Positions 42,337-57,860 of a DNA stretch of 64,000 nt are shown here, in pieces. The position numbers were made by a program, and so were the translations under genes. This stretch comes from Arthrobacter ipis (GTDB lineage Bacteria; Actinomycetota; Actinomycetes; Actinomycetales; Micrococcaceae): contig NZ_JAAOXD010000003.1 in assembly GCF_014694315.1 (NCBI RefSeq), positions 1,021,741 to 1,085,740 of the forward strand. Direction: 5' to 3'. Every line of letters starts with the position of its first letter. Position 1 is the stretch's first letter. The notes beneath the pieces are model-generated. The model was not told the origin of the DNA. It did not search any database and saw only the letters and a list, made by a program, of their open reading frames with translations.

Positions 42337-43307
42337 GTGGCGAAGATGCTCCAGGATGCCTCGTGCGTGGCGCCCGGCTCCAGCCGGATCAGGTCCACGC
42401 CGCTGTTGAAGGCATCAGGAGGGCAGGTCATGGGTTCCACGGCAAGGCCCAGCCGGTTGGGGGCCGGGGGTTGCTTGTCCGCGGTGTGGATCTGGAACCA
42501 CTGGCAGGTGCGGTCCCAGGCCATTCCGACGCCGGTCCCGCCCGGGTCCCGGACCAGCACGCGGGCCAGCCCGCCGCCGTCGAACGCGCCGCCGTCGGAC
42601 GCGCCGCCGTCGGCCGTACCGCCGTCGGCCGTACCGCCGTCGAACGCTATGTCAGTAAACGCATGGTCGATCTCCGTGGCGCCGATGGCGCGCGGCGTGC
42701 GGAAGTCGAACTCGTGCCCCTCCACGGAGCGCGTTTCCTTCGGCAGCAGCCGGTCCGGGGTGACCTCGAGGAACTGCCTAGCGGGGATTTCGAGGGTCCA
42801 CTCATCGAGCGGCGCCGGCCCAGCCACCAGGTACGGGTGCGGGCAGACACCGTAGGGCGCCGCGGTACCGCCGAGGTTCGACGCCGTGACCCGGCTGTGC
42901 AGGCCGTCCTCCGCAAGCCGGTACTCGACGACGACACGCACCTCGTGCGGGTATCCCGCCGTCGGCTGTGGCGTGCAGGACAGCGTCACCGACGACCCGT
43001 CATGTGACTCCAGGTCCCAGTCCAGGGGAAACGCCAGCCCGTGCAGGGCGCAGCCGCGGTCAGTCTCGTTGACCGGCACCTCGTACTCGGTACCGTCGAA
43101 GGTGTACCGGCCATCGGCGATACGGTTGGGCCAGGGCGCCGCAACGATGCCGCGGTAGTCGGGAATGGGTCCGCCCTCCGGGAACGGAACGACTAGGTCC
43201 CGGCCCCGGTGGCGCAGCTCCCGCAGCGCACCGGCCTGTGCCGTAATGGTGGCGGTGTACTCGCCCGCCTGGATTTTGTATTCGGTCACAGCCCTATTTT
43301 GGGTCAC
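42333..43307 (-). CDS. Aldose 1-epimerase (mutarotase)
   Basis: This GalM-like beta-sandwich enzyme interconverts alpha and beta anomers of an aldose, here presumably arabinose, before isomerisation. Key parts are [16 protein letters not shown], the catalytic His in [16 protein letters not shown] with the second His, and the [13 protein letters not shown] end with the catalytic Glu. GTG 43307 overlaps the araA stop (GTGA); GTG 43289 is an alternative start. A loop between about residues 225 and 250 is filled with repeats of DGG-T/A-A/S (see the 15-bp tandem repeat), which is not a usual part of the family. Confidence 0.92.
42573..42647 (-). repeat. Five 15-bp tandem repeats inside the aldose 1-epimerase gene
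   Basis: Units such as GCCGCCGTCGGACGC and ACCGCCGTCGGCCGT follow each other in frame and encode [24 protein letters not shown]. Changes in copy number would add or remove five residues without a frameshift. Confidence 0.9.
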
Positions 43308-44824
43308 AGCCTGCCGGCCAGCCGGTAGTAGGCGGCGTTCCATGCGAGTTCCTTCTTGAACTGCTTGAGGGTGGTGCCTTCGTCGATGGTGAGCAGTTCG
43401 GTCTGCGCGATCTCAGCAAAGTCCTCAAACACGTCCACGCCCACCTGGGTGGACAGGACGGTGTGGTGCGCGGCCCCGGCCGTCAGCCACGCCGCGGCGG
43501 AGGTGGCGAAGTCAGGCTTCGGTTCCCACAGGGCCCGTGCCACCGGCAGGTTGGGCAGCGGCTCGTCGAGGTCGACGACGTCGACGGCGTTCGCCACGAG
43601 GCGGAACCGGTCGCGCATGTCGGACAGGGCGACGACGACGCCGGGGCCGGCGTCGGTGTCGAAGACCATGCGGACCGGGTCTTCCTTGCCGCCGATGCCC
43701 AGCGGGTGGATCTCGACGCGCGGCTTGGCGGTGGTCAGCGAGGGGCACACCTCGAGCATGTGTGCGCCGAGGATCTTCTCCTGGCCGGGCACCAGGTGGT
43801 AGGTGTAGTCCTCCATAAGTGAGGCGCCGCCGGGCAGTCCGGCGCCCATGACCTTGGCCGCGCGGATCAGGATGGCGGTCTTCCAGTCGCCCTCGGCGCC
43901 GAAGCCGTAGCCGTCGGCCATGAGCCGCTGGACGGCCATGCCCGGCAGCTGCCGCAGTTCGCCGAGGTCCTCAAAGGACGTGGTGAAGGCGGCGGAGCCG
44001 TTGGCTTCGAGGAAGCTGCGGAGCCCGAGCTCGATGCGGGCGCTGTAGCGGAGGGATTCATGGCGGGCTCCATCGGAGCGGAGCTCCGGCGCCACGTCGT
44101 AAAGGCGCTCGTACTCGGCCACCAGGGTGTCAACGTCGGACTCCGCGGCGCCATGCACGGCGTCGGCGAGTTCGTTGACGGACCAGGTGTTGACCGAGAC
44201 GCCGAAGCGCAGCTCCGCCTCGGTCTTGTCGCCTTCGGTGACGGCAACGTTGCGCATGTTGTCCCCGAAGCGGGTCAGCTTCAGGTTCCGGACGGCGGCC
44301 CAGCCGGCGGAGGCCCGCTGCCAGACGCCTACCTGGCGGGCCACCTCCGGGTTGGACACGTGGCCCACGACGGTCTTGCGCGGTACGCCCAGCCGGGACT
44401 GGATGTAGCCGAACTCGCGGTCGCCGTGCGCGGCCTGGTTCAGGTTCATGAAATCGAAGTCGATGTCCGCCCACGGCAGTTCCACGTTGGCCTGGGTGTG
44501 CAGGTGCAGCAGGGGCTTGCGGAGCAGGTCGAGGCCCTGGATCCACATCTTGGCCGGGGAGAACGTGTGCATCCACGCCGTCACGCCGATCACGGAATCG
44601 TCCGAGTTGGCTTCCAGCGCGGTCCGGCGGATCGCGTCCGAGTCCGTCAGCACGGGCTTCCAGACGAGCTTGACCGGGACCTCCGAGGATTCGTTCAGGG
44701 CGGCGGCGATCTCCTGCGACTGGGCCGCCACCTGCTTCAGGACGTCCTCGCCGTAGAGGTGCTGGCTGCCGGTGAGGAACCAGACCTCGTAGTGCTCGAG
44801 GGATGTGTTGTTGGCGCTGGGCAT
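43304..44824 (-). CDS. araA: L-arabinose isomerase
   Basis: A 506-residue manganese-dependent isomerase converting L-arabinose to L-ribulose. It begins [20 protein letters not shown], the family's N-terminal signature. Active-site candidates are E311 (GAEGDWKTA), E338 (SLMEDYTYH), H355 (GAHMLEVCP) and the GAAHHTV histidine near 454. The length equals that of E. coli AraA. AAAGGAG lies before the ATG. It is the third gene of araB-araD-araA and its stop overlaps the mutarotase start. Confidence 0.98.
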
Positions 44825-44894
44825 TGGTGTCTCCTTTGAAAGTCTTTGGGTGTCCGTGGCCGCGGTGTGCGGGGCCGCTATGTGGGGACCGGAA

Positions 44895-45605
44895 CTAGCG
44901 GCCGTAAACGTTCTGGTACCGGTCGTACAGCGACTCGATCTGGGCCGGGTCGATGGCCAGCGGTTCGCCGAGCTGCCGGGATACGTGGACCGTGCGGGCC
45001 ACTTCCTCGCACATGACGGCGGCCTTGACTGCGGAGCGGGCGTCCTTGCCGATGGTGAAGGGGCCGTGGTTCTGCATGAGCACCGCCGGGGAGTTGGACC
45101 CGCGCAGCGTTTCCACGATGCCGCGGCCGATCGAATCGTCGCCGATCAGCGCGAACGGGCCCACCGGGATGGGGCCGCCGAACTCATCGCCCATCATGGT
45201 CAGCACGCACGGGATCTCCTCGCCCCGCGCGGCCCAGGCTGTGGCGTAGGTGGAGTGGGTGTGGACCACGCCGCCGACGTCGGGCATATTCCGGTAGACG
45301 TACGCGTGCGCGGCAGTGTCCGACGACGCCGTGAGGTCCGGATTCTCCCATTGGGCCGGAACGCCGTCGGCGTCCGCGCTCAGGCTGCTGACGGGGGTGC
45401 CGTAGAGGTCGGTGACCACCATAAGTTCCGGGGTCAGGTCGTCGTAGGAGACGCCGGAGGGCTTGATGACCATGAGGTCGTAGCCGGGGATCCGGCCGGA
45501 CACGTTACCGGCAGTCCAGACCACCAGGTCGTACCGGGTGAGCTCGGCATGCAGTTCGCAGACCTCGCGGCGGATACGGGCAATGGTTTCCAGCAGTGCG
45601 CTCAC
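44895..45605 (-). CDS. araD: L-ribulose-5-phosphate 4-epimerase
   Basis: A 236-residue zinc-dependent class II aldolase-family enzyme converting L-ribulose-5-phosphate to D-xylulose-5-phosphate. Signature parts are [20 protein letters not shown], the zinc ligands in [14 protein letters not shown] and the third His in [14 protein letters not shown] 45605 overlaps the araB stop (GTGA). It is the middle gene of araBDA, 70 bp before araA. Confidence 0.97.
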
Positions 45606-47356
45606 GCCGAAACCTCCTCAGCGGTCAGGGAGTCAGCGTGCATGGACTGGGAGTTAAGAGACTGGGCTGCGTTGCGCTGTATGGCCTTGAGCCGGTGCAT
45701 GACCTCGTTGGTTCCCCTGCCGAAGTAGTCGTGCAGGGTCCGGTACTCGCGGAACAGTTCGTCGTACGCCGCGACGTTCTCCGGGATGGGCGTGTAGACG
45801 GCGCCCGGTGCGGCGCCCATCGCCTCGGACGCTGCCCTGACATCGGCGTACTTCCCGGCCGCAACGGCCGCGTGGATGGCCGAGCCCAGGGCCGGGCCCT
45901 GCGTGGAGCCGATGGTGGAGAGCTGGAGGCCGGTCACGTCGGAGTAGATCTGCATGAGGAGCTTGTTCTTCAGCAGGCCGCCGGCCACTATGAATTCCTT
46001 CACCGGAACGCCGGAATCCCGGAAGGCGTCCACGATGGTGCGGGTGCCGAAGGCGGTGGCCTCGAGCAGCGCCCGGTAGATGTCCTCGGGCCGGGTGGCG
46101 AGGGTCTGGCCGACAACCACGCCGGAAAGCTCGTGGTCCACCAGCACGGAGCGGTTACCTGAGTGCCAGTCGAGGGCGATGAGGCCGTGCTGGCCGATCG
46201 CCTGCCCGGAGGCCAGGTCCGTCAGGTATTCGTGGATGCCCTGCCCGGCCTCGGCCGCAGCCTGGTGGTATTCGGGCGGAACGCCGTACTTGGTGAACCA
46301 GCCGAAGATGTCGCCCACGCCGGACTGTCCGGCCTCATAGCCCCAGAGCCCGTCGACGATGCCACCGTCCACCACGCCGCACATGCCGGGCACCTCGTGA
46401 AGCTCGGCGCCGTTCATGACGTGGCAGGTGGAGGTGCCCATGATGGCCACGAGCTGGCCCGGCTCCACGGCCTTCGCAGCCGGGGCGGTGACGTGCGCGT
46501 CCACGTTGCCCACGGCGACGGCGATGCCCTCCGGCAGCCCGGTCCAGGCGGCGGCCTCCGCGGTCAGGTAACCCGCAGCGTCGCCCAGGCGGCCGATGGT
46601 GTGGTCCAGTTTGCTGCTGACGAAGTCCTTGAACTGCGGATTCAGCGCGGCGAGGAAGTCATCGGACGGGTAGTGCCCGTCCTGGTAGATGCCCTTGTAG
46701 CCGGCGGTGCAGGCGTTGCGGACGTAGTTGCCGCAGAGCTGCCAGACGATCCAGTCCGCGGCCTCCACCCAGTGGTCCATTTCGGCGTAGGCCTCGGGAT
46801 CCTCCTCCAGCTGCTGCAGCCCTTTGGCAAACTCCCACTCGGACGAGATCAGCCCGCCGTACCGCGGCAGCCAGGACTCGCCGGGATCGGCGGCCAGCGC
46901 GTTGATCCGGTCGGCCTGGCCCTGGGCCGCGTGGTGCCGCCAGAGCTTGACGTATGCATGCGGCCGGTTGGCGTATCCCGGCAGTTCGTTGAGCGGGGTA
47001 CCGTCGGCTTTGACGGGAACCATGGTGCAGGCGGTGAAGTCCGTGGCAATTCCGACGACGGCGGCCGGGTCGATCCCGGCGTCCGCGATTGCGGCGGGGA
47101 CAGCGTGCCGCAGCACGTCCCGGTAGTCGTTGGGCACCTGCAGGGCCCATTCCCCGGGCAGCCGGGCGGTTGCTCCATCGGCAGCGCCAGCCACGTCCGC
47201 CGGAAGCACATCAGTGACTACCGCGTGCGGGTAGTCGAACACTCCGCTGCCGAGCTCCTTGCCGTCCCGGACCCGCACAACCACGGCCCGGCCGGACAGG
47301 GTGCCATAGTCCACCCCGATGACATAGTTTTCGCTGCCGTCTGCTGTGACGTCCAT
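45602..47356 (-). CDS. araB: L-ribulokinase
   Basis: A 584-residue FGGY-family kinase phosphorylating L-ribulose. The start is ATG 47356 with GGAGG just upstream; the longer frame has no support. Motifs are YVIGVDYGTLSGRAVVV (phosphate 1), IATDFTACTMVPV, GNVDAHVTAPAA, IMGTSTCHVM and EFIVAGGLLKNKLLMQIY. It is the first gene of the ara operon. Its promoter has an embedded arabinose-type operator. Confidence 0.98.
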   Translation of the reverse strand: MDVTADGSENYVIGVDYGTLSGRAVVVRVRDGKELGSGVFDYPHAVVTDVLPADVAGAADGATARLPGEWALQVPNDYRDVLRHAVPAAIADAGIDPAAVVGIATDFTACTMVPVKADGTPLNELPGYANRPHAYVKLWRHHAAQGQADRINALAADPGESWLPRYGGLISSEWEFAKGLQQLEEDPEAYAEMDHWVEAADWIVWQLCGNYVRNACTAGYKGIYQDGHYPSDDFLAALNPQFKDFVSSKLDHTIGRLGDAAGYLTAEAAAWTGLPEGIAVAVGNVDAHVTAPAAKAVEPGQLVAIMGTSTCHVMNGAELHEVPGMCGVVDGGIVDGLWGYEAGQSGVGDIFGWFTKYGVPPEYHQAAAEAGQGIHEYLTDLASGQAIGQHGLIALDWHSGNRSVLVDHELSGVVVGQTLATRPEDIYRALLEATAFGTRTIVDAFRDSGVPVKEFIVAGGLLKNKLLMQIYSDVTGLQLSTIGSTQGPALGSAIHAAVAAGKYADVRAASEAMGAAPGAVYTPIPENVAAYDELFREYRTLHDYFGRGTNEVMHRLKAIQRNAAQSLNSQSMHADSLTAEEVSA

Positions 47357-47398
47357 GAATCCTCCAGATAAAGGCCCGTTGCGTTCCGGGCTGAAACT

Positions 47399-47428
47399 AT
47401 TGTGAGCGCTAACAACTTGGTCCGTCAA
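47399..47428 (-). promoter_or_regulatory. araB promoter with embedded operator
   Basis: On the minus strand: TTGACG (47428-47423), 18 bp, CACAAT (47404-47399). The operator TTGTTAGCGCTCACAA (47415-47400) fills the spacer and -10 box, as at ytfQ. Confidence 0.75.
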
Positions 47429-47461
47429 GTGCCTTGGATCACCGATTGGGGATCAACGCCC

Positions 47462-48472
47462 TCAGGCGGGGGCGGAGGTACTCCCGCGGACCACGAGTTC
47501 GGGCTCCACCACTGTGGTGCTCACTGTGTCCCCCTTCTCGATGGCGCTCAGCATCAGGTCCATGCAGCGCCGGCCGAGTTCCTCGAAGTCCTGCCGCACG
47601 GTGGTGAGGGGCGGCGTGAAATAGCCCGACTCCGGCTGGTCGTCGAAGCCCACCACGGAGACGTCCTCGGGCACGCGGACGCCCGCCTCGCTGAAGGCGC
47701 GGAGCAAGCCCAGGGACATCTGGTCATTGCCAACGAACAGCGCCGTTGCGGTCCGCTCCGCAGCCAGCTTCCGCCCGATCTCATAGCCGCTTCCGGCGCT
47801 CCAGTCGCCCTCGACCACAAGGTTGTCATCCAGGCCGGCCGCGCGCAGGGCCGCGCTCCAGCCCTCGGCGCGCGCTACGGCGTCGATCCAGTCCTGGGGG
47901 CCGGCGATGTGGCCGATCCGGCGGTGGCCCTGCTCAATCAAATGCCCGACGGCGAGCTCGGCCCCCCGCTTCTGGTCCACCATGGCGCCGCTCACCGACT
48001 CGCTGCCCAGCGATCCCACGGCCACCACCGGCACCCCGGGTTTCAGTTCCTCGAGGGCAAGGAGCGTCTCGGAATGCGGCACGATCACCACAATGCCGTC
48101 CACCGACTGGTCCAGGAAATGCCGGATGGCATCGAAGATCGCCTCGCGGCTCACCGCTCGCAGGGCCGCGATGCTGACGAAGTAGCCGGCATCGCGCGCG
48201 GCATGCTCAACGCCCAGCAAGGTGTTGGCCGGACCGTACTGCGACAGCTCACTGCCGAGCACGCCGATGGTCTGCGACTTCCGGGTCACCAGGCTCCGCG
48301 CCGCGGTGTTGCGCCGGTACCCCAGCTCCGCAATGGCTGCCTCGACGCGCTCACGGGTGGCCTTGCTGACGTTGGGGTGATTGTTGATCACCCGGGACAC
48401 GGTCTGGTGCGAGACTCCCGCGCGCTCCGCCACATCCTCAAGCCGGGGCATCCGGGCACTGGTTTTTGCCAT
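47462..48472 (-). CDS. LacI-family regulator upstream of araB
   Basis: A 336-residue LacI protein: HTH RLEDVAERAGVSHQTVSRVI (about residues 10-29), hinge NTAARSLVTRKSQ, effector domain ending GFDDQPESGYFTPPLTTVRQ. It lies directly upstream of araB in the same direction, with the TTGTTAGCGCTCACAA operator between. It is the best candidate for the main arabinose repressor. The close paralogue at 41320 shares the recognition helix. Confidence 0.93.
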   Translation of the reverse strand: MAKTSARMPRLEDVAERAGVSHQTVSRVINNHPNVSKATRERVEAAIAELGYRRNTAARSLVTRKSQTIGVLGSELSQYGPANTLLGVEHAARDAGYFVSIAALRAVSREAIFDAIRHFLDQSVDGIVVIVPHSETLLALEELKPGVPVVAVGSLGSESVSGAMVDQKRGAELAVGHLIEQGHRRIGHIAGPQDWIDAVARAEGWSAALRAAGLDDNLVVEGDWSAGSGYEIGRKLAAERTATALFVGNDQMSLGLLRAFSEAGVRVPEDVSVVGFDDQPESGYFTPPLTTVRQDFEELGRRCMDLMLSAIEKGDTVSTTVVEPELVVRGSTSAPA

Positions 48473-48554: not shown

Positions 48555-50168
48555 ATGGACGGAAAAGTTCATCATTCTGGGGCCGGATCTTCCGCACGGC
48601 ACATGCTGACGGGCCTCCTGCTCCTGCTCGCCCTCCTCCTTGGATACCTGCCCGGCGCCGCTCCGGCACGCGCCGTTTCACTCAACGGCCATGACATCTC
48701 CTGGCCCCAGTGCCCGACGGCGGTGGGCGGCTTTGGCCTGCCCCTCCCGCCGGCGGCGTCCCAGTTCGTGGTGATCGGCCTGACGAAGGGACTGCCCTTC
48801 ACGGAGAATCCGTGCCTGGCCAGCCAGGTTGCCTGGGCGTCCAGCAACCGGAAGCCGGCCCAGGCCTACACCATGGCCGCCTTCCCCACAGCCGCCCAGC
48901 TCACCACCTACCGGGCGCAGGGACCGTGGTCGGCGGCCACCCGGGCGGGGCAGCTTTCCAACGTCGGCTACGCGGAAGCGCGGTTCGCGGTTGCAAGCCT
49001 TGCGCGGGTCCGGTTCGCGCCGCGCGTTGTGTGGATCGACGTCGAACCCCGCCCGGCCCAGCCTTGGCCCACCGCGAGCGCGGCGCAGCAGCGCGAAAAC
49101 CGGTACATCATCGAGGGCCTCATGCGCGGGCTGCGGGATTCCGGCTATTCCTATGGCCTGTACTCGTTCGCTTCGGGCTGGGCCAGCATCACCGGATCTT
49201 GGCGGCTCTCCGGCGTTCCGGTGTGGGCCACCGCCGGGCGGCTGGATTTCCCCGGTGAAGCCCTGAATCTCTGCCGCACACCCAGCTTCTCCGGCGGCCG
49301 CGTGTACCTCTCGCAGTGGTACGACGACGTAAGGGATTACGACCTGACCTGCGACCCCTACACCTTCACCCCGCTGCCCATTCCGGCCTCCACCCTGTCC
49401 CGCTCGACGGCCGACTTCAACGGCGACTGGAACACGGACATCCTCGCCCGGGTCACGGCGACGGCCGAACTGCGGCTGTACCGGGGGAACGGCCGCGGCA
49501 GTCCGCTCTCCGGCGTGTTAATCGGTAACGGCTGGCGGGGCTATAGCGCCCTTGAGACGCCTGGCGACTTCAACGGCGACGGCCCCCTGGACGTCCTCGC
49601 CCGGGAGGACACCACCGGCACCCTCTGGCTGTACCGCGGCAACGGCACCGGCGGGTTCCTTCCCCGGAGCAGGATCGGCTCCGGCTGGAATGCCATGAGC
49701 GCCATCATCGGTCCCGGTGATTTCAACGGTGACCAGCGCGTGGACGTCCTTGCCCGAGAGTCTGCCACCGGCTTCCTGTGGCTGTACCGCGGCAACGGCA
49801 CGGGCGGGTTCCTGCCGCGGATCCGCGTGGGCTCCGGCTGGAACGCCTTCAACGCCCTGGCTGGTCCGGGCGACATGAACGGCGACGGCAGTGTCGACGT
49901 CCTTGCCCGCGAGCGCGCCACCGGCGTCCTGTGGCTCTACCGCAGCAACGGCACGGGCGGCTGGCTCCCCCGCATCCGGGTGGGTGCCGGCTGGAACGTC
50001 ATGACCGCCGTCGTATGTCCCGGCGACTTCAACGGCGACCGCAACCCGGACCTGCTGGCGCGCGACGCCGCCGGCGTCCTGTGGCTCTACCCCGGGCTCG
50101 GCACAGGCCTGTTTGCCTCCCGGGTGCGCATCAGCGCGGGGTGGAACGGGCTCGCCCCGCTGTTCTAG
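48555..50168 (+). CDS. Secreted DUF1906/GH25-like protein with FG-GAP (VCBS) repeats
   Basis: A 537-residue exported protein. Signal peptide cleaves after about residue 41 (ARAVS). Residues about 43-275 form a TIM-barrel-like domain with GHDISWPQCP at its start, WIDVEPRP and SQWYDDVRDYDLTCD, as in the DUF1906/glycoside-hydrolase-like family related to lysozyme-type GH25. The second half has five FG-GAP-type repeats of about 48 residues, each with DFNGDxxxDVLARE and LWLYRGNGTGGF, resembling calcium-binding propeller blades. It may act on cell-wall material. The start has GGAG at about 9 nt. No anchor is seen. Confidence 0.85.
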   Translation: MDGKVHHSGAGSSARHMLTGLLLLLALLLGYLPGAAPARAVSLNGHDISWPQCPTAVGGFGLPLPPAASQFVVIGLTKGLPFTENPCLASQVAWASSNRKPAQAYTMAAFPTAAQLTTYRAQGPWSAATRAGQLSNVGYAEARFAVASLARVRFAPRVVWIDVEPRPAQPWPTASAAQQRENRYIIEGLMRGLRDSGYSYGLYSFASGWASITGSWRLSGVPVWATAGRLDFPGEALNLCRTPSFSGGRVYLSQWYDDVRDYDLTCDPYTFTPLPIPASTLSRSTADFNGDWNTDILARVTATAELRLYRGNGRGSPLSGVLIGNGWRGYSALETPGDFNGDGPLDVLAREDTTGTLWLYRGNGTGGFLPRSRIGSGWNAMSAIIGPGDFNGDQRVDVLARESATGFLWLYRGNGTGGFLPRIRVGSGWNAFNALAGPGDMNGDGSVDVLARERATGVLWLYRSNGTGGWLPRIRVGAGWNVMTAVVCPGDFNGDRNPDLLARDAAGVLWLYPGLGTGLFASRVRISAGWNGLAPLF

Positions 50169-50279: not shown

Positions 50280-50311
50280 ACCCCCTTATACCCGTCTCAT
50301 TGAGGGGGTAT
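50280..50311. promoter_or_regulatory. Possible metal-responsive operator upstream of the multicopper oxidase
   Basis: ACCCCC (50280-50285) pairs with GGGGGT (50304-50309), and ATACCC (50288-50293) pairs with GGGTAT (50306-50311). GC-rich palindromes flanked by TA, such as TACCCC-GGGGTA, are typical of CsoR copper-sensor sites. It lies about 190 bp before the oxidase start. The remainder of 50219-50497 holds no gene. Confidence 0.35.
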
Positions 50312-50497
50312 GCACCGCATACGTCCAATGTTTTCCCAAGCCCCGGCCCGCACAGTAGTTGCGCGGGGCAACGACAAGCGCAGCCGGCTTCCGCAAGGCC
50401 AGGATTTCCGGTGATGAAACGCCGGAAAGCCCTGAGAGCTAAACATACCGGGGCCGGCAGGCCATTCTTTTTTGCCCCGTTAAGGAGGCGTATTCCC

Positions 50498-50563
50498 ATG
50501 TCCGAAGAAACCGCAATCACTACAAACGACATGTCCGAAGAAACCGCGACCACTACAAACGAA
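50498..50563 (+). repeat. 33-bp tandem duplication at the start of the oxidase gene
   Basis: Two units of 33 bp (30 of 33 identical) encode MSEETAITTND and MSEETATTTNE. The second unit has an in-frame ATG at 50531, but only the first is next to the ribosome-binding site. Confidence 0.9.
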
Positions 50564-52744
50564 GTGTCCCGCCGCAATCTCCTGCGGCTGGGTGCGGCCG
50601 GAGGTGCCGGCGCAGCCGTGGTCGCCGCCCAGGGCTGGGCAGGACCGCTGCTCGCACAGAAAGGACTCCTTTCCCCTGACGGCGCGTTCGCCGCATCGTC
50701 CACCGCCCTCGGCGATCTGCTGTTCTACATCGAGGCATTCCCCACCAGCCCGTTGATCCTGACGCCGTTCAAGGACCAGCTGCCCATTCCCAAGGCCCTG
50801 GCCCCCACTCCGGCCGTGGGCGACGGCTTCACCAAGGGCTATACCGAGTGGAGCGATCCGCCCGGCCCCGGCCAGGGCCAGCAGAGTTCCTTCAAGAATG
50901 AGCGGCACCAGATCTGGCCGAACACGATCGGTTCCCCGGATCCCCTGGTGTACAAGATCGACATCCTGCTGCGGCAGCACGCGTTCACCACCTCGCAGGT
51001 GCTGCCCATCGACGCGAACGGCCGGCCCACGATCTCCTTCGATGACAAGCGCAAGACCTACCCGGCAGGGACCAAGCGGACTCTGCCGCTGAGCACCATC
51101 TACGGCTTCAACGGGACCTTCCCCGGCCCGATGATCAACGCCGAGTACGGCAAGCCGGCGCTGGTGCGGTTCGAGAACCACCTGGACGAGAACCCGCTGA
51201 ACCTGGACCGCCAGGACTTCGGATCCCCCGACTGGTCCTTCCTGACCCACCTCCACAACGGGCACACGGCACCCGAGAGCGACGGCAACCCGCACTACTC
51301 GATGGTTTCGGGGCCGAAGTACGAGGGCTACCTGCCCAAGACGTTCTGCGACAACCTCTACCTGAACTGGCCGGCGGGCAACGATGACCGCGAGAAGCAA
51401 AGTTTCTTCTGGTTCCACGACCACCGCATGGACCACACCGGATCCAATGTCTACAAGGGCATGGTGGGCCTCTACCCGATCTATGACCCCAAGAACGGCA
51501 TGGACATGGGCGACGAGCGCCGGGGCCTGCGGCTTCCGGGCGTCCGCAAGAACAACCCCGACGGATCCTTCGACGTCGACTACGACGTCCCGCTGGCCTT
51601 CTACGACTGCCGGCTGGACGACGGCGTCACCATGCACAAGGACATCCACGACGTGCAGAAGGAGTTCCCGGACGCCAAGAACCCGGCCAAGCACCCCGAG
51701 TGGTGGGGCAAAACCTTCTACAAGCACTTCCCCAACCACGGGTTCGTGGGCGACATCTTCACCGTGAACGGCACCGCCTACCCCGTCATGGAGGTCAAGC
51801 GCCGCAAGTACCGCTTCCGGTTCCTGGACGCCTCCATCGCCCGGATCTACGAGTTCAAGCTGATGAGCTCCACGAAGGGGCCGAAGACCGCTGTCTCGCT
51901 CGGCTACAAGGGCGACGAACTCGAGGGGCAGTACCGCATCCCGGATGGCCAGCAGTGCATGCAGTTCACGCAGATCGCGTCCGACGGCGGCCTGCTGCCG
52001 TTCCCGATCCAGCGCGATTCCTTTGAGCTGTGGCCGGCCAAGCGACGCGAAATGGTCATCGACTTCACCCGTTACGCAGACGGCACGCCCACCACCAAGG
52101 GCGATGTCATCTACCTCACCGACGTGATGAAGATGCCCAACGGCCGGATGTGGAGCAACTCATCCCGGTTCTCGCCGGACCCGAATTACAAGGTCCCGGT
52201 GCTCAAGTTCGTGATCGGCGACGATGCTCCGGACGACAGCGTCATCCCGACCGGGATGATGCGTGAGCTCCCGCCGCTGCCGAGCAACTGGCAGACCATG
52301 CTGGACAACCGGCTGATCTTCGAGGTGGAGCGCGGCTCTGGCGGCGGCGAAACTGAGTGGCTCATCAACGGCAAGCCGTTCACTCCGAACACCGTTGCCA
52401 CCAGCCTGAAGAACCGCGCGGGCCGGTCACCACTGGCCCAGCAGAAGAAGGGCAGCTACAACCTGTGGGAGATCCGCAACGGCGGCGGTGGCTGGGTCCA
52501 TCCGTTCCACCTGCACATGGAGGAACACCGGGTGGTCATGAGGAACGGCCGGGACGTCACGCGCGGCGGCGACAAGGGCCATCCCGATGATGTCTCACGT
52601 GAGGATCTGGTGGCCTTGGATCCCGGCGAGTCGACAATTATCTACCGCGGGTTCCGTGACTTCGTTGGACCGTACGTGGCCCACTGCCACAACCTGGCCC
52701 ATGAGGACCACGCCATGATGTTCGGCTGGGAGATCACGCCATGA
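50498..52744 (+). CDS. Tat-exported multicopper oxidase (phenoxazinone synthase/CotA-like)
   Basis: A 748-residue copper oxidase that would act outside the membrane. ATG 50498 has AAGGAGG at 9 nt. Tat motif SRRNLLRLG (residues 24-32). Copper ligands are present: HLHNGH (H251, H253), FHDH (H307, H309), HPFHLH (H668, H671, H673) and HCHNLAHEDHAMM (H729, C730, H731, H735, M740). The axial Met points to a laccase/CotA-like potential. The layout resembles phenoxazinone synthase and CotA rather than CueO. Substrate unknown: phenols, bilirubin-like pigments or Mn(II)/Fe(II) are possible. It overlaps the next gene as ATGA. Confidence 0.92.
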   Translation: MSEETAITTNDMSEETATTTNEVSRRNLLRLGAAGGAGAAVVAAQGWAGPLLAQKGLLSPDGAFAASSTALGDLLFYIEAFPTSPLILTPFKDQLPIPKALAPTPAVGDGFTKGYTEWSDPPGPGQGQQSSFKNERHQIWPNTIGSPDPLVYKIDILLRQHAFTTSQVLPIDANGRPTISFDDKRKTYPAGTKRTLPLSTIYGFNGTFPGPMINAEYGKPALVRFENHLDENPLNLDRQDFGSPDWSFLTHLHNGHTAPESDGNPHYSMVSGPKYEGYLPKTFCDNLYLNWPAGNDDREKQSFFWFHDHRMDHTGSNVYKGMVGLYPIYDPKNGMDMGDERRGLRLPGVRKNNPDGSFDVDYDVPLAFYDCRLDDGVTMHKDIHDVQKEFPDAKNPAKHPEWWGKTFYKHFPNHGFVGDIFTVNGTAYPVMEVKRRKYRFRFLDASIARIYEFKLMSSTKGPKTAVSLGYKGDELEGQYRIPDGQQCMQFTQIASDGGLLPFPIQRDSFELWPAKRREMVIDFTRYADGTPTTKGDVIYLTDVMKMPNGRMWSNSSRFSPDPNYKVPVLKFVIGDDAPDDSVIPTGMMRELPPLPSNWQTMLDNRLIFEVERGSGGGETEWLINGKPFTPNTVATSLKNRAGRSPLAQQKKGSYNLWEIRNGGGGWVHPFHLHMEEHRVVMRNGRDVTRGGDKGHPDDVSREDLVALDPGESTIIYRGFRDFVGPYVAHCHNLAHEDHAMMFGWEITP

Positions 52745-53913
52745 CAACGGTACCCGCGGGCACCGCGAACTGGAGCAGCAGCGGGACCGGCGCCTCGGCG
52801 CCGGGCCGCCCCGCGGTCCCCTGGCGAACGGTCATCCCGCTGGCCGCGATGATGGCCTACGCCGACGGATTCTGGATGGTCTCGCTCCGTGGCGCCGTGG
52901 GCGCCATCGAACGCACCCAGGAGCCATTTGCCAGCTGGCTTCGGGAGTCCACCGTGCTGCTGCCGGCATTTGTCCTGGCCGTGGTTGCGGCGGTGACCCT
53001 GGCACTGCGCTGGTTCGGGCCCGTGTTGTCCGGCAAGAAGGCCTTCCTGACCACGGCACTCCTGGTTGCCGGGGCCGGGACGGTGGCAGGGACCGCCATA
53101 CTGGCCGCCAGTGAAGCCTGGGACTATGCCCTGCAGCACGATCTCATGAGCCATCTGCACCACTCGACCTCGGTCCAGTCGGTGGACCAGCTGGACCAGT
53201 CGTCGCTGGGACTGCAGCTGGCTGCCTTTGGCTACGGCGTCGGCCTGCTCGTGGTCACCAACGTCGCGGTGACCGGGTGGACGGTGGCAATCCGGGGCGG
53301 ACGGCTGGACGTCAGCCGGACGCAGCAGTCCACCCCGAAGCGCACCCCCCGCCGTGCCGCGGCCGGTCGAGCCCGCATGTCCGCCACGGACCTTCGGCAG
53401 ACGGTGGCGGCGGTGGCTCTGTTCGGCTGCGCCGCCATCCATCTTGCGGTCATACCTGACCACTTCGACCACTGGGTGGTCGCCAGCGTCTTCTTCCTTG
53501 CCCTGGCGCTGGCGGAGGTGGCCGGCGGCGTACTGCTGCTGGGCCGGCCCGGCCTGAACGTCCTCGTTGCCGTCGCGGTTGCCTCCGCGGTGCCGCTGGT
53601 TTTGTGGGCGTGGTCCCGCACGTCAGGGCTCCCCTTCGGCCCCAACTCCAATGTGCCCGAGCCTGTTGGCCTCGCCGATGTCGCCGCCTGCCTCCTCGAA
53701 CTGGGCACCCTGGCGATCGCCGTCGCCCTGCTCCGCGCGAGGCGCAGGGAAACCGGCGAGCCGGAGAGGCAGACGAGGGCGTCCGCCCACCTCCGCGCAC
53801 TGGCCGTGGTGGGGGCAATCGCCATTGGATCCCTGGGCGTGGCAGGCGCCGTGCCCGGCTGGCTGGGCGACGTGGATACTTCGGGGGACACCACCCACAG
53901 CGTCACGCATTAG
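52741..53913 (+). CDS. Membrane protein coupled to the multicopper oxidase
   Basis: A 390-residue protein of about eight or nine membrane helices in two halves. The first half (from TVIPLAAMMAYADGFWMVSL) ends with a His-rich loop, HDLMSHLHHSTSVQ. A basic linker (TPKRTPRRAAAGRARM) precedes the second half, which carries AAIHLAVIPDHFDHWVVASV, a motif of an unnamed actinobacterial membrane family. ATG 52741 overlaps the oxidase stop, so the two are translationally coupled. It might anchor the oxidase, carry electrons or deliver copper; none of these is proven. Confidence 0.8.
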   Translation: MTTVPAGTANWSSSGTGASAPGRPAVPWRTVIPLAAMMAYADGFWMVSLRGAVGAIERTQEPFASWLRESTVLLPAFVLAVVAAVTLALRWFGPVLSGKKAFLTTALLVAGAGTVAGTAILAASEAWDYALQHDLMSHLHHSTSVQSVDQLDQSSLGLQLAAFGYGVGLLVVTNVAVTGWTVAIRGGRLDVSRTQQSTPKRTPRRAAAGRARMSATDLRQTVAAVALFGCAAIHLAVIPDHFDHWVVASVFFLALALAEVAGGVLLLGRPGLNVLVAVAVASAVPLVLWAWSRTSGLPFGPNSNVPEPVGLADVAACLLELGTLAIAVALLRARRRETGEPERQTRASAHLRALAVVGAIAIGSLGVAGAVPGWLGDVDTSGDTTHSVTH

Positions 53914-54144: not shown

Positions 54145-55434
54145 ATGAACGCTGGAGATGTTGCCTGGATCCTCGCAAGTTCCGCATTGGTGTGCATGAT
54201 GATTCCCGCCCTGGCCCTCTTCTACGGGGGCATGGTGGGATCTCGCCGGATCCTGAACATGATGATGATGTGCTTTGGCGGGGCGAGCCTGGTGGCCGTG
54301 CTGTGGGCGCTGTTCGGCTACTCGATGGCCTTTGGCAATTCCGTGAACGGCTTGGGCCTGATCGGAGACGTCACGCAGTACGCAGGCCTCGAGCCGATGC
54401 TGAAGGATAATCCCGATGCCGCCCTGCCGGCAGCGCTGTTCACGTCCTTCCAGCTGTTCTTCGCCTGCGTCACCACCGCCCTGGTGGCCGGTGCCGCCGC
54501 CGGGCGGATGAAGTTCGGCGCCTGGATGGTGTTTGCCGGCGTCTGGGCCACGCTGGTCTACTTCCCCATCGCGCACTGGGTCTTTGCGTTTAACTCCGCG
54601 GACGGTTCGGTGACGGGTGGTTGGATCGCCAACGGCATCAAGGCCATCGACTACGCCGGCGGAACAGCAGTGCACATGAACGCCGGCGCCGCAGCCCTCG
54701 CCCTCGCCCTGGTCCTGGGCCGCAGCTCCGGCTGGCCCAAGATGGAACACTCCAAGCCGCACAGCCGGCCGCTGGTGCTGGTGGGCGCGGGCCTGCTCTG
54801 GATTGGCTGGTTCGGCTTCAACGCCGGCTCTGCGCTGGCCGCCGGGCACGCTGCGTCCGTGGTGTTCCTCAACACCGCGGTGGCCGCCGCGGCGGGGCTG
54901 CTCGCCTGGGCACTCGTTGAACGGATCAGGCACGGGGCCACCACCAGCATGGGTGCCGCCTCAGGCCTGATCGCCGCGCTTGTGGCCATCACCCCTGCCT
55001 GCGGCGCGGTCAGTCCGCTGGGCGCCGTGGCCATCGGCGCGATCGCCGGTGCTGTCTGCTCGCTGGCGATCGAATGGAAGTTCCGCCTCGGCTTCGACGA
55101 CTCACTGGACGTGGTGGGCGTGCACCTCGTGGGCGGCATCATCGGCACGCTCCTCATCGGCATCTTCGCCACCAGCAGCGCGCCCAATGGCGTCAGCGGC
55201 CTGCTGTACGGCGGCGGTCTGCAGCAGCTGGGCATTCAGTCAGTCGCGACCGTTGCTGTGCTGGCCTACTCCTTCGGCATGACCTGGGTGATTGCCAAGG
55301 TGGTCGACATGGCCATGGGGCTGCGCATTCACGAAGAGGACGAAATTCGAGGCATCGACCTCGCGGCCCACGCGGAATTCGCCTACCTGACAGACGAAGA
55401 CCCCGTGAACCTGGGCGCCGCACCCCGGTCCTGA
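54145..55434 (+). CDS. amt: Ammonium transporter
   Basis: A 429-residue Amt/Rh channel protein of about eleven helices. ATG 54145 has GTGGAG at 7 nt; the GTG at 54133 is less likely. Conserved parts: ALALFYGGMVGSRRILNMMM, DYAGGTAVHMNAGAAAL (twin-His H177) and GVHLVGGIIGTLLIG (twin-His H327). It ends with a C-terminal tail, EEDEIRGIDLAAHAEFAY, the region that contacts PII. No glnK is linked within the window. The gene overlaps the end of the converging FAD gene by 52 bp. Confidence 0.96.
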   Translation: MNAGDVAWILASSALVCMMIPALALFYGGMVGSRRILNMMMMCFGGASLVAVLWALFGYSMAFGNSVNGLGLIGDVTQYAGLEPMLKDNPDAALPAALFTSFQLFFACVTTALVAGAAAGRMKFGAWMVFAGVWATLVYFPIAHWVFAFNSADGSVTGGWIANGIKAIDYAGGTAVHMNAGAAALALALVLGRSSGWPKMEHSKPHSRPLVLVGAGLLWIGWFGFNAGSALAAGHAASVVFLNTAVAAAAGLLAWALVERIRHGATTSMGAASGLIAALVAITPACGAVSPLGAVAIGAIAGAVCSLAIEWKFRLGFDDSLDVVGVHLVGGIIGTLLIGIFATSSAPNGVSGLLYGGGLQQLGIQSVATVAVLAYSFGMTWVIAKVVDMAMGLRIHEEDEIRGIDLAAHAEFAYLTDEDPVNLGAAPRS

Positions 55435-57860
55435 GCCTGCTCCTCGGCAGGGACAGCCAGATCCTTTGTGAACGCCAGCGGCCCGATGGTCTCGGGGTCG
55501 GCGGCGAGGTCAAATTGCGCGGCGTACCCGGTGTTCAGGTACAGGTACTTGGCCTCCGGCTGGCGCGGGCCCGTGGTGAGGTAGACGCCGCGGTACCCGC
55601 GCCCGGCCGCCAACCGCTCCAGTTCCTCGAGTACCCGCCGGGCCAGTCCCCGCCGCCGGTGCGCCGAGTGGGTCCAGATCCGCTTAAATTCAGCGGTTTC
55701 GGCGTCGTACCGGCGGAAGGCGCCGCCGGCCACGGACTCGCCGTTCTCCTGAATGATCAGCAGCGCGCCGTGCGGCGCCTCGAACTCCTCGGCCGGGTAC
55801 CTGTTCAGTTCCTCCGCGGCCGCGCCCCGGCCGAACAGGTCGCCGTAGCGGGAGTCGTACTCCGCTGCAAGCTCGTCCAGGAGGGGCCGGACCCGGGGAT
55901 CGTGCATGGGCAGTTCGAGGACGGTGAGCGGAGAGTGTGACACTGCCGTGAGGATCCTTCGCGCCAGGGCGTCGTTCTCCCGGAACGGCGCCGCGTTGGT
56001 GCCGGGCCGGGCGAACGCGCCCGCACCCCAGCCGGAGGTCCCGGGGCCGATTCCGAACAGACCGCTGCGGGTTTCGCCGGTCCGGCCCACAATCTGGTGG
56101 CCCGAAGTGACCAGGAGCCGGCCGGTGGAGTGGCCGCCGTCGGACGTGAGCAGGTGCTGCTCAGCGCCCAGGCCCGTGCCGTGCAGCGAGCGGAGCAGCG
56201 GGTTGGCGGAACGGGCCACGGCGGGGCCGGGGAGCCGCGCCTCGATGAAGGCCTTCGCCCGGACGGTCACCGGTGACTGCGCCGTCGTCGCCACGAACTC
56301 GCCCGTGGCGTCGTCGGCGGCAACAGCAAGGCCCGGGCCCAGGAACTGCAGCAGTCCGGCACGGTGGACGGCCAGCATTTCGCGCAGGCGGCGGGGCGGC
56401 GGACCGGAATCCACAAAGCTAAAGAACCCGTGCCACCAGCCGTGGACGTCCTCCTGGGAGCGCGCGTTCAGCCGTTCCGGCGGGACGATCCTGCCCAGCT
56501 CCATGTACACCTTCAGCAGGGCCATGAACAGCGCGAGCGTTTCCGGGTGGTCGGGTCCCGTGCGCAGCTCGAGGTCATGTTCGATGTAGCCGACCACCGC
56601 CGCCTGCACGTCACCGTGGGCGGCAAAGAGCCGGCGGCCGAACGGCTTGTCCAACTGTTCGAGGTCCAGGTGCAGGTCCGCGTCCGGCACGGCTGTGTCG
56701 ACGAGTTCGTGGCGCGCGCTGCCATACCAGTCGAGCGCGGCAAAGCGCTCGGCAAATTCGTCCCAGCCCATCGCAACGCGCTCCGGACTGCCCGTGAACA
56801 GCTCCCGGTAGTAGCCGTAGCCGGCATCCTTCGCGATCAGGGGCCAGAGGTGCGTACGGAAATCCAGTTCGGCGTGCTCCGACAGGAGCGCGCCCACGGC
56901 GTCGGCGGTGAAGAACCGGGGCGCCGCCGCCGGTTCGCCGCGCAGGGCAACGGAGATCTTGGAGTGGAACGGCACGCCCCGCCGGGACCCGGCCCACAGC
57001 CTGGGTTCGGCTCCGGACGGAAGGTAGCGCAGCCCGCCGTCGGCCGTCTCCTCGAAACGGCCGCCGCGGCCTTCGGTGAGCAGCACCAGCAGGTCCACGA
57101 AGGCGAGGCCCATGCCAGAGACAATGACGTCCTGGCCGGGGGCGATCGGGGAATAGTCGACGTCGGTGGTGTAGCTGGGTGCCGCATGGAACCCGCCGTG
57201 CCTGGCCGCGAACGCGGACCAGCCGGCCGAGCGGGCATCCGGTTCCGCGTCCGTGTGCCCCAGCGCGGTAATCACGACGTCGGCGTGCAGCGTGCCGCCG
57301 CTGGCCAGCCGCACGCTGTACCCGCCGTCGTCGGGCTGCTGTTCGCCGGGTTCGCCGTCACGGGGTTCGCCCAGCGGTTCGATGCTGACAGCGGTGTCGC
57401 CGTGGACGGTGACCCGGACGTCGCTGCCGAGGGCGCGGACGGCGCGGCGGAAGAACCACTCGAGGTACTTGCTTTGCATCTGGCGGGTGGCAAAGGAACC
57501 GCCCTTCAGGGAGCGCAGCTGTTCCTGCAGGTGCGGCGAAAAAGCCGGTGCGTCGGTGATGGAACCGTCCAGGATCCCAGCGGCCCAGGCGGCGAGGCCC
57601 GGCCCGTCGATGGCGGGCCCGTCGCAGACCACCGAGGAATCGGTGAACATGGTGACGTCCGCCGCCGTGGAATTCATCATGAGGCCAGGCTCCTGGTCAT
57701 AACGCCAGATCCTGCCGGAACCGGGTTCATGCGGCTCCACGACGTGGATCTGCAGCGGCCCGTCCGCGAGCCCTCGCCGGTTGGCCGCGAGCCGCTCGAG
57801 GATGCCGGCCGTGCGCGGGCCACCGCCAATGAAAACCACGGATGGGTGCTGCGCTGGCAT
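55383..57860 (-). CDS. FAD/NAD(P)-binding protein fused to a GNAT acetyltransferase
   Basis: An 825-residue fusion. Residues 1 to about 640 form an FAD/NAD(P)-binding domain of the PF13454 type: VVFIGGGPRTAGILERL (GxGxxG), HADVVITALGHTD, GQDVIVSGMGLAFVDLLVLL, and a closing FGIGPGTSGWGAGAFARP. Residues about 645-795 form a GNAT domain with FKRIWTHSAHRRRGLARRVL (acetyl-CoA loop) and RQPEAKYLYLNTGY. Both parts look complete. The gene is divergent from an amino-acid-type importer with flavin monooxygenases. In Bacillus yxe/ytm operons the equivalent acetyltransferase is a separate protein that N-acetylates modified cysteines. Confidence 0.88.
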   Translation of the reverse strand: MPAQHPSVVFIGGGPRTAGILERLAANRRGLADGPLQIHVVEPHEPGSGRIWRYDQEPGLMMNSTAADVTMFTDSSVVCDGPAIDGPGLAAWAAGILDGSITDAPAFSPHLQEQLRSLKGGSFATRQMQSKYLEWFFRRAVRALGSDVRVTVHGDTAVSIEPLGEPRDGEPGEQQPDDGGYSVRLASGGTLHADVVITALGHTDAEPDARSAGWSAFAARHGGFHAAPSYTTDVDYSPIAPGQDVIVSGMGLAFVDLLVLLTEGRGGRFEETADGGLRYLPSGAEPRLWAGSRRGVPFHSKISVALRGEPAAAPRFFTADAVGALLSEHAELDFRTHLWPLIAKDAGYGYYRELFTGSPERVAMGWDEFAERFAALDWYGSARHELVDTAVPDADLHLDLEQLDKPFGRRLFAAHGDVQAAVVGYIEHDLELRTGPDHPETLALFMALLKVYMELGRIVPPERLNARSQEDVHGWWHGFFSFVDSGPPPRRLREMLAVHRAGLLQFLGPGLAVAADDATGEFVATTAQSPVTVRAKAFIEARLPGPAVARSANPLLRSLHGTGLGAEQHLLTSDGGHSTGRLLVTSGHQIVGRTGETRSGLFGIGPGTSGWGAGAFARPGTNAAPFRENDALARRILTAVSHSPLTVLELPMHDPRVRPLLDELAAEYDSRYGDLFGRGAAAEELNRYPAEEFEAPHGALLIIQENGESVAGGAFRRYDAETAEFKRIWTHSAHRRRGLARRVLEELERLAAGRGYRGVYLTTGPRQPEAKYLYLNTGYAAQFDLAADPETIGPLAFTKDLAVPAEEQAQDRGAAPRFTGSSSVR

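Follow-up and report, generated by a model that had tools for sequence, protein, structure and literature searches.

A long-form multicopper oxidase of Arthrobacter ipis and its coupled membrane partner: a candidate membrane-held metal oxidase

A 64,000-nucleotide stretch of the Arthrobacter ipis genome (assembly GCF_014694315.1, contig NZ_JAAOXD010000003.1, positions 1,021,741 to 1,085,740 of the forward strand), referred to here as the window, carries a gene pair that encodes a multicopper oxidase (MCO) and a polytopic membrane protein. We propose, at about even chances, that the pair is a membrane-held extracytoplasmic metal oxidase in which the membrane partner anchors or docks the MCO and Mn(II) is the leading candidate substrate. 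Taken separately, the anchoring role is the part towards which we lean, and Mn(II) as the substrate is plausible at a little under even chances. The N-terminal module (N-module) of the partner is, by profile searches and alignment, an MCO module, found as a separate coupled protein beside the long-form MCO and in one chain with MnxG-type proteins in other monoderms. The features of the pair, numbered from the first letter of the window, are as follows.

50498–52744, + strand: long-form MCO gene, 748 amino acids (aa), with a CotA/bilirubin oxidase/CueO fold (Pfam, PDB sequence, ligand conservation, AF2 model and structure search)
50567–50659, + strand: twin-arginine signal region, aa 24–54, RR at 25–26 (Pfam TAT_signal and conservation of R25)
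51605–51754, + strand: family-specific His/Asp loop, aa 370–419 (D375, H380, D382, H384, HPEWWG, H410), a candidate metal-substrate site
52741–52744, + strand: ATGA stop/start overlap of the MCO and partner genes (sequence)
52741–53913, + strand: membrane partner, 390 aa, nine long predicted membrane helices (4 + 4 + 1; AF2 model)
52810–53310, + strand: N-module, four helices, MCO-associated and also fused to MnxG-type proteins (profile searches, alignment)
53383–53769, + strand: C-terminal four-helix domain (C-domain) with invariant H234, H241, E307 and E320 (alignment of 23 C-domains), a common domain found mostly away from MCOs

The first gene belongs to the MCO superfamily, since Pfam Cu-oxidase_2 (4.5e-14) and Cu-oxidase_3 (2.5e-7) each match over their cut-offs and the full set of T1, T2 and T3 copper ligands is present. 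A preliminary description of the locus, made from the sequence alone, had credited the oxidase with all copper ligands; indeed, H251, H253, H307, H309, H668, H671, H673, H729, C730, H731, H735 and M740 show zero substitutions among 78 aligned sequences (window included; 76 to 78 reach each column). The long-form relatives were retrieved with the peptides F[FY]WFHDH or HPEWWGK, with one scan of 84,980 species genomes, so the conservation of H307, H309 and HPEWWG is in part a consequence of this retrieval. The window MCO is up to 94% identical to Arthrobacter relatives, and its AF2 model (pLDDT 79.2, pTM 0.83) resembles CotA, bilirubin oxidase and CueO by structure search. The TAT_signal match scores 19.6 bits, just below the cut-off of 22.7, and R25 is kept in at least 97% of the 78 aligned sequences.

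The His/Asp loop is a family-specific feature of this MCO. Its residues D375, H380, D382, H384, H399, E401, W402, W403 and H410 are kept in 77 or 78 of the 78 aligned sequences, with the conservation of HPEWWGK biased by its use as a retrieval peptide and the remaining loop residues lying outside those peptides. The loop sits just before the segment aligned with CotA PAFCGE, where motif 1 of LPR1 falls, and the segment that follows the loop position in LPR1 is described as carrying an Fe(II)-binding Glu (PMC9168544). Because it precedes this segment, the loop may hold the metal substrate.

The pair is conserved well beyond the genus. The long-form MCO set comprises 75 loci (a non-exhaustive list, with L numbers; G and C numbers denote genomes and contigs), of which 48 are from Actinomycetota, 10 from Chloroflexota and 17 from diderm phyla, each phylum being assigned from the names in the database records. 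A downstream module was counted when the N-module profile (about aa 24–190) matched within 900 bases at E under 0.01. The N-module lies directly 3′ of the long-form MCO in 44 of the 48 actinobacterial loci, in 6 of the 10 Chloroflexota loci and in none of the 17 diderm loci (15 judgeable, because the contigs of L081 and L085 end inside the MCO frame); the Chloroflexota contig of L069 ends about 0.6 kb past the MCO. The adjacency to which the preliminary description tied its case is thus widely kept, and the ATGA overlap that it reported is there, the MCO ending at 52744 and the partner starting at 52741. Similarly, the partner gene overlaps the MCO gene by 4 bases in 19 of 45 cases and by 1 base in 5 of 45, and it starts within 31 bases in 38, under a rule, biased to short gaps, that scans from 12 bases ahead of the MCO end and accepts the first start codon. 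These counts cover 45 of 46 partners, L054 having no measured gap and L082 being left out of the 46.

Pairwise distances of MCO and partner correlate with r = 0.65 over 43 loci (0 of 2000 permutations; L082 and L054 left out), with shared ancestry not removed. The alignments omit L001, L002 and L033 as repeats of the window or of L015, L033 being counted among the 48. Values of dN/dS (the ratio of nonsynonymous to synonymous substitution rates) of 0.07–0.11 for the MCO and 0.23–0.35 for the partner in four comparisons point to purifying selection on both. The partner occurs in 18 of 198 genomes of the genus, and a plasmid search turned up no partner on plasmids.

The partner belongs to an unnamed family, as had been suggested. 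It matches no Pfam or NCBIfam family over cut-off and no PDB sequence below E = 0.1, its AF2 model (pLDDT 81.7, pTM 0.72) has no Foldseek match at E up to 0.001, and no Pfam family matches more than 2 of the 46 aligned members at E up to 0.1. Partners in Arthrobacter, Terrabacter and relatives consist of the N-module plus the C-domain, and other actinobacterial partners, of 189–251 aa, consist of the N-module alone; in G896, of the same genus, the two parts are split into two overlapping frames, for which a frameshift is also possible. Within the N-module, G54 and P75 are invariant and W28, F44, A52, R58, W66, S70, D128, N174, W180, G186 and G187 are near-invariant. No His, Met or Cys besides the start Met is universally conserved in it, which favours a structural role. 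A Cys pair ahead of the last helix is present in 30 of 40 N-modules; it is missing from the window and lost in its clade. The preliminary description had also pointed to the His-rich stretches HDLMSHLHHSTS and IPDHFDHW. Both are present as letters; HDLMSHLHHSTS is not conserved, which rules out a His-rich loop as a metal relay, and the invariant His residues across the 23 C-domains are limited to H234 and H241 in the C-terminal half.

Where else does the N-module occur? Searches with the module profile used a limit of E = 1e-5 and scored only the best 10 or 11 candidates per genome, so that absence is not proof. In the window's class, 3 of 296 genomes gave matches, at 4 places; in the phylum of L082, 5 of 301 genomes did, at 7 places. 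Two of these 11 places lie beside a long-form MCO and nine (8 open reading frames, ORFs) form the N-terminus of MnxG-type ORFs, their status being judged by NF041487 or by similarity to L105, L112 and L114. Within these samples, the module is thus specific to the two kinds of oxidase. In the Chloroflexota loci L054 and L082, it begins proteins that match the MnxG profile NF041487, and the partial L082 protein does so at E = 0 and 1024 bits and matches the PDB MnxG 9bxa at 8e-70. The order in L112 is the MCO, a small membrane ORF (module E = 0.008) and then a 2664-aa protein made of two modules plus MnxG domains, which contains the stretch of L082. The module also opens MnxG-type ORFs of 2677 and 2501 aa (L111 and L116, from the Anaerolineales metagenome-assembled genome, MAG, of L042) and, in the window's class, ORFs of 1905, 1748 and 1960 aa together with L128 (a 1741-aa frame). 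By hydropathy, 13 of 17 MnxG-type ORFs have several N-terminal membrane segments. Among the open-licence PMC papers listed, titles and the starts of abstracts gave no account of the pair or of a membrane-module–MnxG fusion.

Furthermore, MnxG-type ORFs of at least 1500 aa are found in 9 of 37 actinobacterial genomes with a long-form MCO compared with 2 of 294 sampled genomes without one (Fisher 5e-8), a comparison that ignores kinship and in which the 37 include other classes. The test set consisted of 50 of the 75 loci plus the window's genome (51 genomes), 16 of which match at E up to 1e-3. In the class sample, 3 of 296 genomes have an MnxG-type ORF, and one, G237 (the genome of L059 by coordinates), owns a long-form MCO, which gives the 2 of 294. 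At E up to 1e-3, 41 of these 296 genomes match, 38 of them only in frames under 1500 aa, which were left out. Scoring depth was up to 7 candidates per genome in the test and at most 2 in the control; it was 3 in the search that assigned the long-form MCO to G237 and 14 for the C-domain, and a missing match in any of these is no proof of absence.

The gene neighbourhoods point to metals as well. Animal haem peroxidase genes flank the pair on both sides in L031 and lie upstream, as a single gene, in L053; these peroxidases are described as one of the two families of Mn oxidases (PMC9224936). MauG-family di-haem peroxidases occur at L056, L073, L075, L080, L084, L086 and L087. The pair and an MnxG-type gene (L114) occur together in Terrabacter sp. 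Root85 (L023), and a Terrabacter isolate, a strain different from Root85, is reported as a good Mn(II) oxidiser (PMC6396730). A respiratory or metal system had been envisaged for the pair. Its metal half gains from the fusion of the module to MnxG-type proteins and from neighbours that include animal haem peroxidase, SCO1 and CusB/CusA genes, and its respiratory half found no support.

How might the pair work? Judging from its signal, the oxidase would be exported in folded form via the twin-arginine (Tat) route and would then stay at the outer face of the cytoplasmic membrane, docked on the co-translated polytopic partner. Its substrate would most likely be a metal ion, Mn(II) first and Fe(II) or Cu(I) next, which the His/Asp loop would hold close to the type 1 copper, and the C-terminal half of the window partner would be an optional add-on. 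Bacterial phyla divide by cell envelope type into monoderms and diderms. This division fits membrane retention, because the absence of the module from the diderm loci is expected if it takes the place of an outer membrane. Of the three roles offered for the partner in the preliminary description, anchoring is the best supported, by the cis fusion and by the diderm loci; the supply of electrons or copper fares less well, as the N-module has no universal His, Met or Cys and invariant His occur only in the optional C-domain.

The C-domain itself is, by its distribution, mostly but not wholly apart from oxidases. It is common, being present in 46 of the 296 genomes of the window's class, and in 29 other C-domain loci the nearest 1.5 kb or so is free of MCO-like ORFs. 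When the range is widened to about 8 kb on each side, or to the contig end, an MCO-like gene appears at 4 of the 29, namely at L189, L190 and L191, which belong to one genus and have the gene about 1–2 kb downstream, and at L120 (G214 C1:636000-650000), where 1.1 kb separates the C-domain ORF from the end of an MnxG-type gene upstream of it. In L003, the C-domain follows a cupredoxin/nitrite-reductase-like MCO. An actinobacterial MAG (L044:4253-11039) has three consecutive MCOs; the second is followed by an N-module protein and the third by a C-domain protein that stands alone. These two loci had suggested that the C-domain is a further MCO-specific module, an idea that was rejected, since most C-domain loci lie apart from oxidases. 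The structural likeness of the C-domain to copper storage proteins (Z 11) is within the chance range for helical bundles.

The start of the MCO gene and the region upstream contain three further features.

50288–50311, no strand assigned: palindrome ATACCC-N12-GGGTAT upstream of the MCO, a possible operator (the sole exact match in the genome; variants in L016–L019 and L072)
50482–50488, + strand: Shine–Dalgarno sequence AAGGAGG, which fixes the MCO start (sequence)
50498–50563, + strand: tandem 33-bp duplicate at the start of the MCO gene (30 of 33 identical; single copy in 12 aligned relatives)

The ORF in the program-made list opens at TTG 50300, and the real start is 50498, because of the AAGGAGG just ahead of it. 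The duplicated 33-bp unit noted earlier at this start was confirmed, the two copies (50498–50530 and 50531–50563) lying head to tail; it looks private to the window strain, because the unit is single in the 12 other aligned sequences. The copper-type operator proposed upstream did not hold up, although the palindrome exists. CsoR type-2 operators are described as TAC-X9-GTA with G tracts (PMC3902906), and a CsoR-type site at the palindrome was ruled out by its TAC-X16-GTA spacing and its uniqueness: no exact ATACCC-N10..14-GGGTAT other than the window copy exists in the 4.5 Mb genome. The variants at the five close Arthrobacter loci are not identical to it. The pattern TACCC-N5-GGGTA has three genomic sites, all away from the pair, and is of little information, as a reversed control pattern is equally frequent. 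It is possible that the palindrome is the site of a different, non-CsoR regulator.

Several observations weigh against a membrane-held manganese oxidase. The link to Mn is indirect, because no MnxG match exists in the window's genome or in 28 of the 37 actinobacterial MCO genomes. In actinobacterial MnxG-type ORFs, the module is matched only weakly (1e-5 to 1e-8), 4 of the 17 MnxG-like ORFs have no N-terminal multi-helix stretch, and all MnxG-type matches fall under the NF041487 equivalog cut-off of 3100 bits; L082, L105, L114, L117, L120, L121 and L128 score 45 to 1024 bits (L082 and L128 being partial) and are MnxG relatives, not equivalogs. The pairing, though adjoining in most actinobacterial loci as the word "coupled" had implied, is not obligatory, for the window's genome has at least eight MCO genes, four of them long-form (the window copy and three paralogues) and four more distant:

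L008, C11:629994-632183; L009, C15:50249-52432; L010, C10:87987-90119: long-form paralogues
C15:158182; C11:880588; C10:301300; C12:127797: more distant MCO genes

The three close paralogues (77–83% identical) have no adjacent partner, and neither do the actinobacterial loci L021, L022, L025 and L036, so the MCO may act without a dock of its own; according to the names in the database records, the strains of these four partnerless loci (Bi83, A. globiformis NBRC 12137 and AFG20) also own a partnered copy (L019, L017 and L018, respectively). Finally, CusB/CusA-type efflux genes stand by the MCO in 11 of the 17 diderm loci and an SCO1 gene is nearby in 5 of the 10 Chloroflexota loci, both counts being of protein clusters with one member of each named by Pfam, and both suit copper handling too.

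Could the pair, then, serve copper detoxification, with a CueO-like cuprous oxidase and a partner that merely holds the MCO at the membrane or moves copper? This would explain the diderm neighbourhoods better than manganese does; the SCO1 genes and the G-tract palindrome would suit it, and CueO and CotA tie as the closest folds of the MCO model among the matches listed. On the other hand, the palindrome has no second exact copy in the genome and is not spaced like a CsoR type-2 operator, the MCO reaches only 104.1 bits on the CueO model NF008205 against an equivalog cut-off of 525, and MnxG-type proteins carry the module in fused form. Inspection by eye showed no copper ATPase or CsoR gene near the pair, no profile search having been aimed at them. 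We regard copper detoxification as unlikely, though it ranks first among the rival readings. Quite unlikely, in our judgement, is a partner that aids the copper loading or export of the MCO and does not hold the finished enzyme. The two invariant His and two invariant Glu of the C-domain, the Cys pair of most N-modules and SCO1 near some loci would speak for such a maturation factor, but the short partners lack the C-domain, and at 25 of the 29 other C-domain loci no MCO could be detected over about 8 kb or up to the end of the contig. In addition, the window's clade has lost the Cys pair, and a module joined in cis to MnxG-type proteins speaks for a permanent attachment.

Slightly less likely still is that the MCO is a laccase acting on phenolic or aromatic substrates, with metals incidental. 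CotA and bilirubin oxidase are among the nearest folds, and the PhsA o-aminophenol oxidase model NF045554 is among the profile matches, but at 97.2 bits against an equivalog cut-off of 950; several neighbours across phyla are metal- or peroxidase-related, and the conserved His/Asp loop lies in what is probably the substrate pocket. Improbable, finally, is a partner that moves electrons between the quinone pool and the MCO, with energy-linked oxidation of a metal or quinol. A polytopic protein in fixed association with a redox enzyme, with two invariant His in its C-domain, would be expected of such a conduit, but the N-module has no universally conserved His, Met or Cys, no respiratory family matches more than 2 of the 46 partner members (two weak matches to cytochrome bd subunit II), the fold has no significant PDB match and the C-domain is optional. 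A membrane-held metal oxidase, with the partner as its anchor, remains the reading that we prefer.

Some further observations concern the MCO loci and their surroundings. L010 lacks the usual MCO C-terminal end and the twin-arginine signal and may be decaying. The partnerless loci L008, L021, L022 and L025 have a common neighbourhood in four Arthrobacter-type genomes, with genes that by eye resemble a TetR regulator gene and a phenylacetate degradation gene, and may serve aromatic metabolism. In an Acidimicrobiaceae MAG (L058:2506-10180), three long-form MCOs stand in tandem, the third running off the contig. Five Chloroflexota MCOs (L047, L052, L053, L056 and L060) are extended at the C-terminus, and the final part of the extension looks, by eye, like the end of large proteins (e.g., L063:153-2687) encoded near the MCO in 12 loci; the one large MCO-neighbour protein scanned has PKD domains. 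In the window, an FG-GAP repeat protein is encoded just upstream of the MCO (48555–50168) and is kept there in five loci. Further away lie a gene for a protein of 825 aa that combines an FAD/NAD(P)-binding domain with a GNAT acetyltransferase domain at its C-terminus (55383–57860, − strand) and a group of genes that we take to be an arabinose operon, with isomerase, epimerase, kinase and LacI-type regulator (43304–48472, − strand).

Why bacteria oxidise manganese, and where, is an old open question: the physiological function has been called unclear, and the activity has been placed on the outer cell surface (PMC6396730, PMC8533519). Seen so far only with MCOs and fused to MnxG relatives, the module offers a genetic handle on membrane-held metal oxidation and can be used to look for metal oxidases in Actinomycetota and Chloroflexota, and it suggests a function for an unnamed membrane protein family as the holder of metal-oxidising enzymes on the cell surface. 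A bolder, tentative extension, which we think doubtful at present, is that monoderms have their own class of membrane-held metal oxidases built on one four-helix module, either coupled to a CotA-fold MCO or joined, singly or in duplicate, to MnxG-type proteins; Mn(II) would then be oxidised at the cytoplasmic membrane, and its oxidation could be energetically coupled to that membrane.

Compared with known systems, the window MCO shares the fold (VIA Z 34–36 over 414–454 residues among the matches listed) and the copper-ligand motifs of CotA, bilirubin oxidase and CueO. Its identity to CotA is 23% (Foldseek) to 33% (VIA), it is more than 200 residues longer than CotA and bilirubin oxidase, and it is further set apart by the His/Asp loop, the putative twin-arginine signal and a coupled membrane partner. 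The LPR1-type bacterial ferroxidases are likewise described as resembling CotA and as oxidising a metal ion; such MCOs occur in soil bacteria and plants, and three acidic-triad motifs have been published for them (PMC9168544). These motifs are missing from the window MCO (0 of 3); 77 of the 78 aligned sequences have none and one has motif 1 only, and an LPR1-type assignment was therefore rejected. MnxG itself was rejected as an identity for the window MCO, as NF041487 is absent among its matches to E = 1 and has 0 matches in the window's genome. Bacillus MnxEFG is comparable as an MCO with dedicated accessory proteins: MnxG is reported to need MnxE and MnxF for overexpression, and the latter two are described as resembling no characterised protein (PMC5622069). 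Bacillus MnxG differs in that the oxidase part already aligns from residue 7 of the 1227-aa chain of PDB 9bxa, which leaves no room for the module. On the other hand, the MnxG-type proteins of Chloroflexota and Actinomycetota resemble the window system in carrying the partner's membrane module at their N-terminus.

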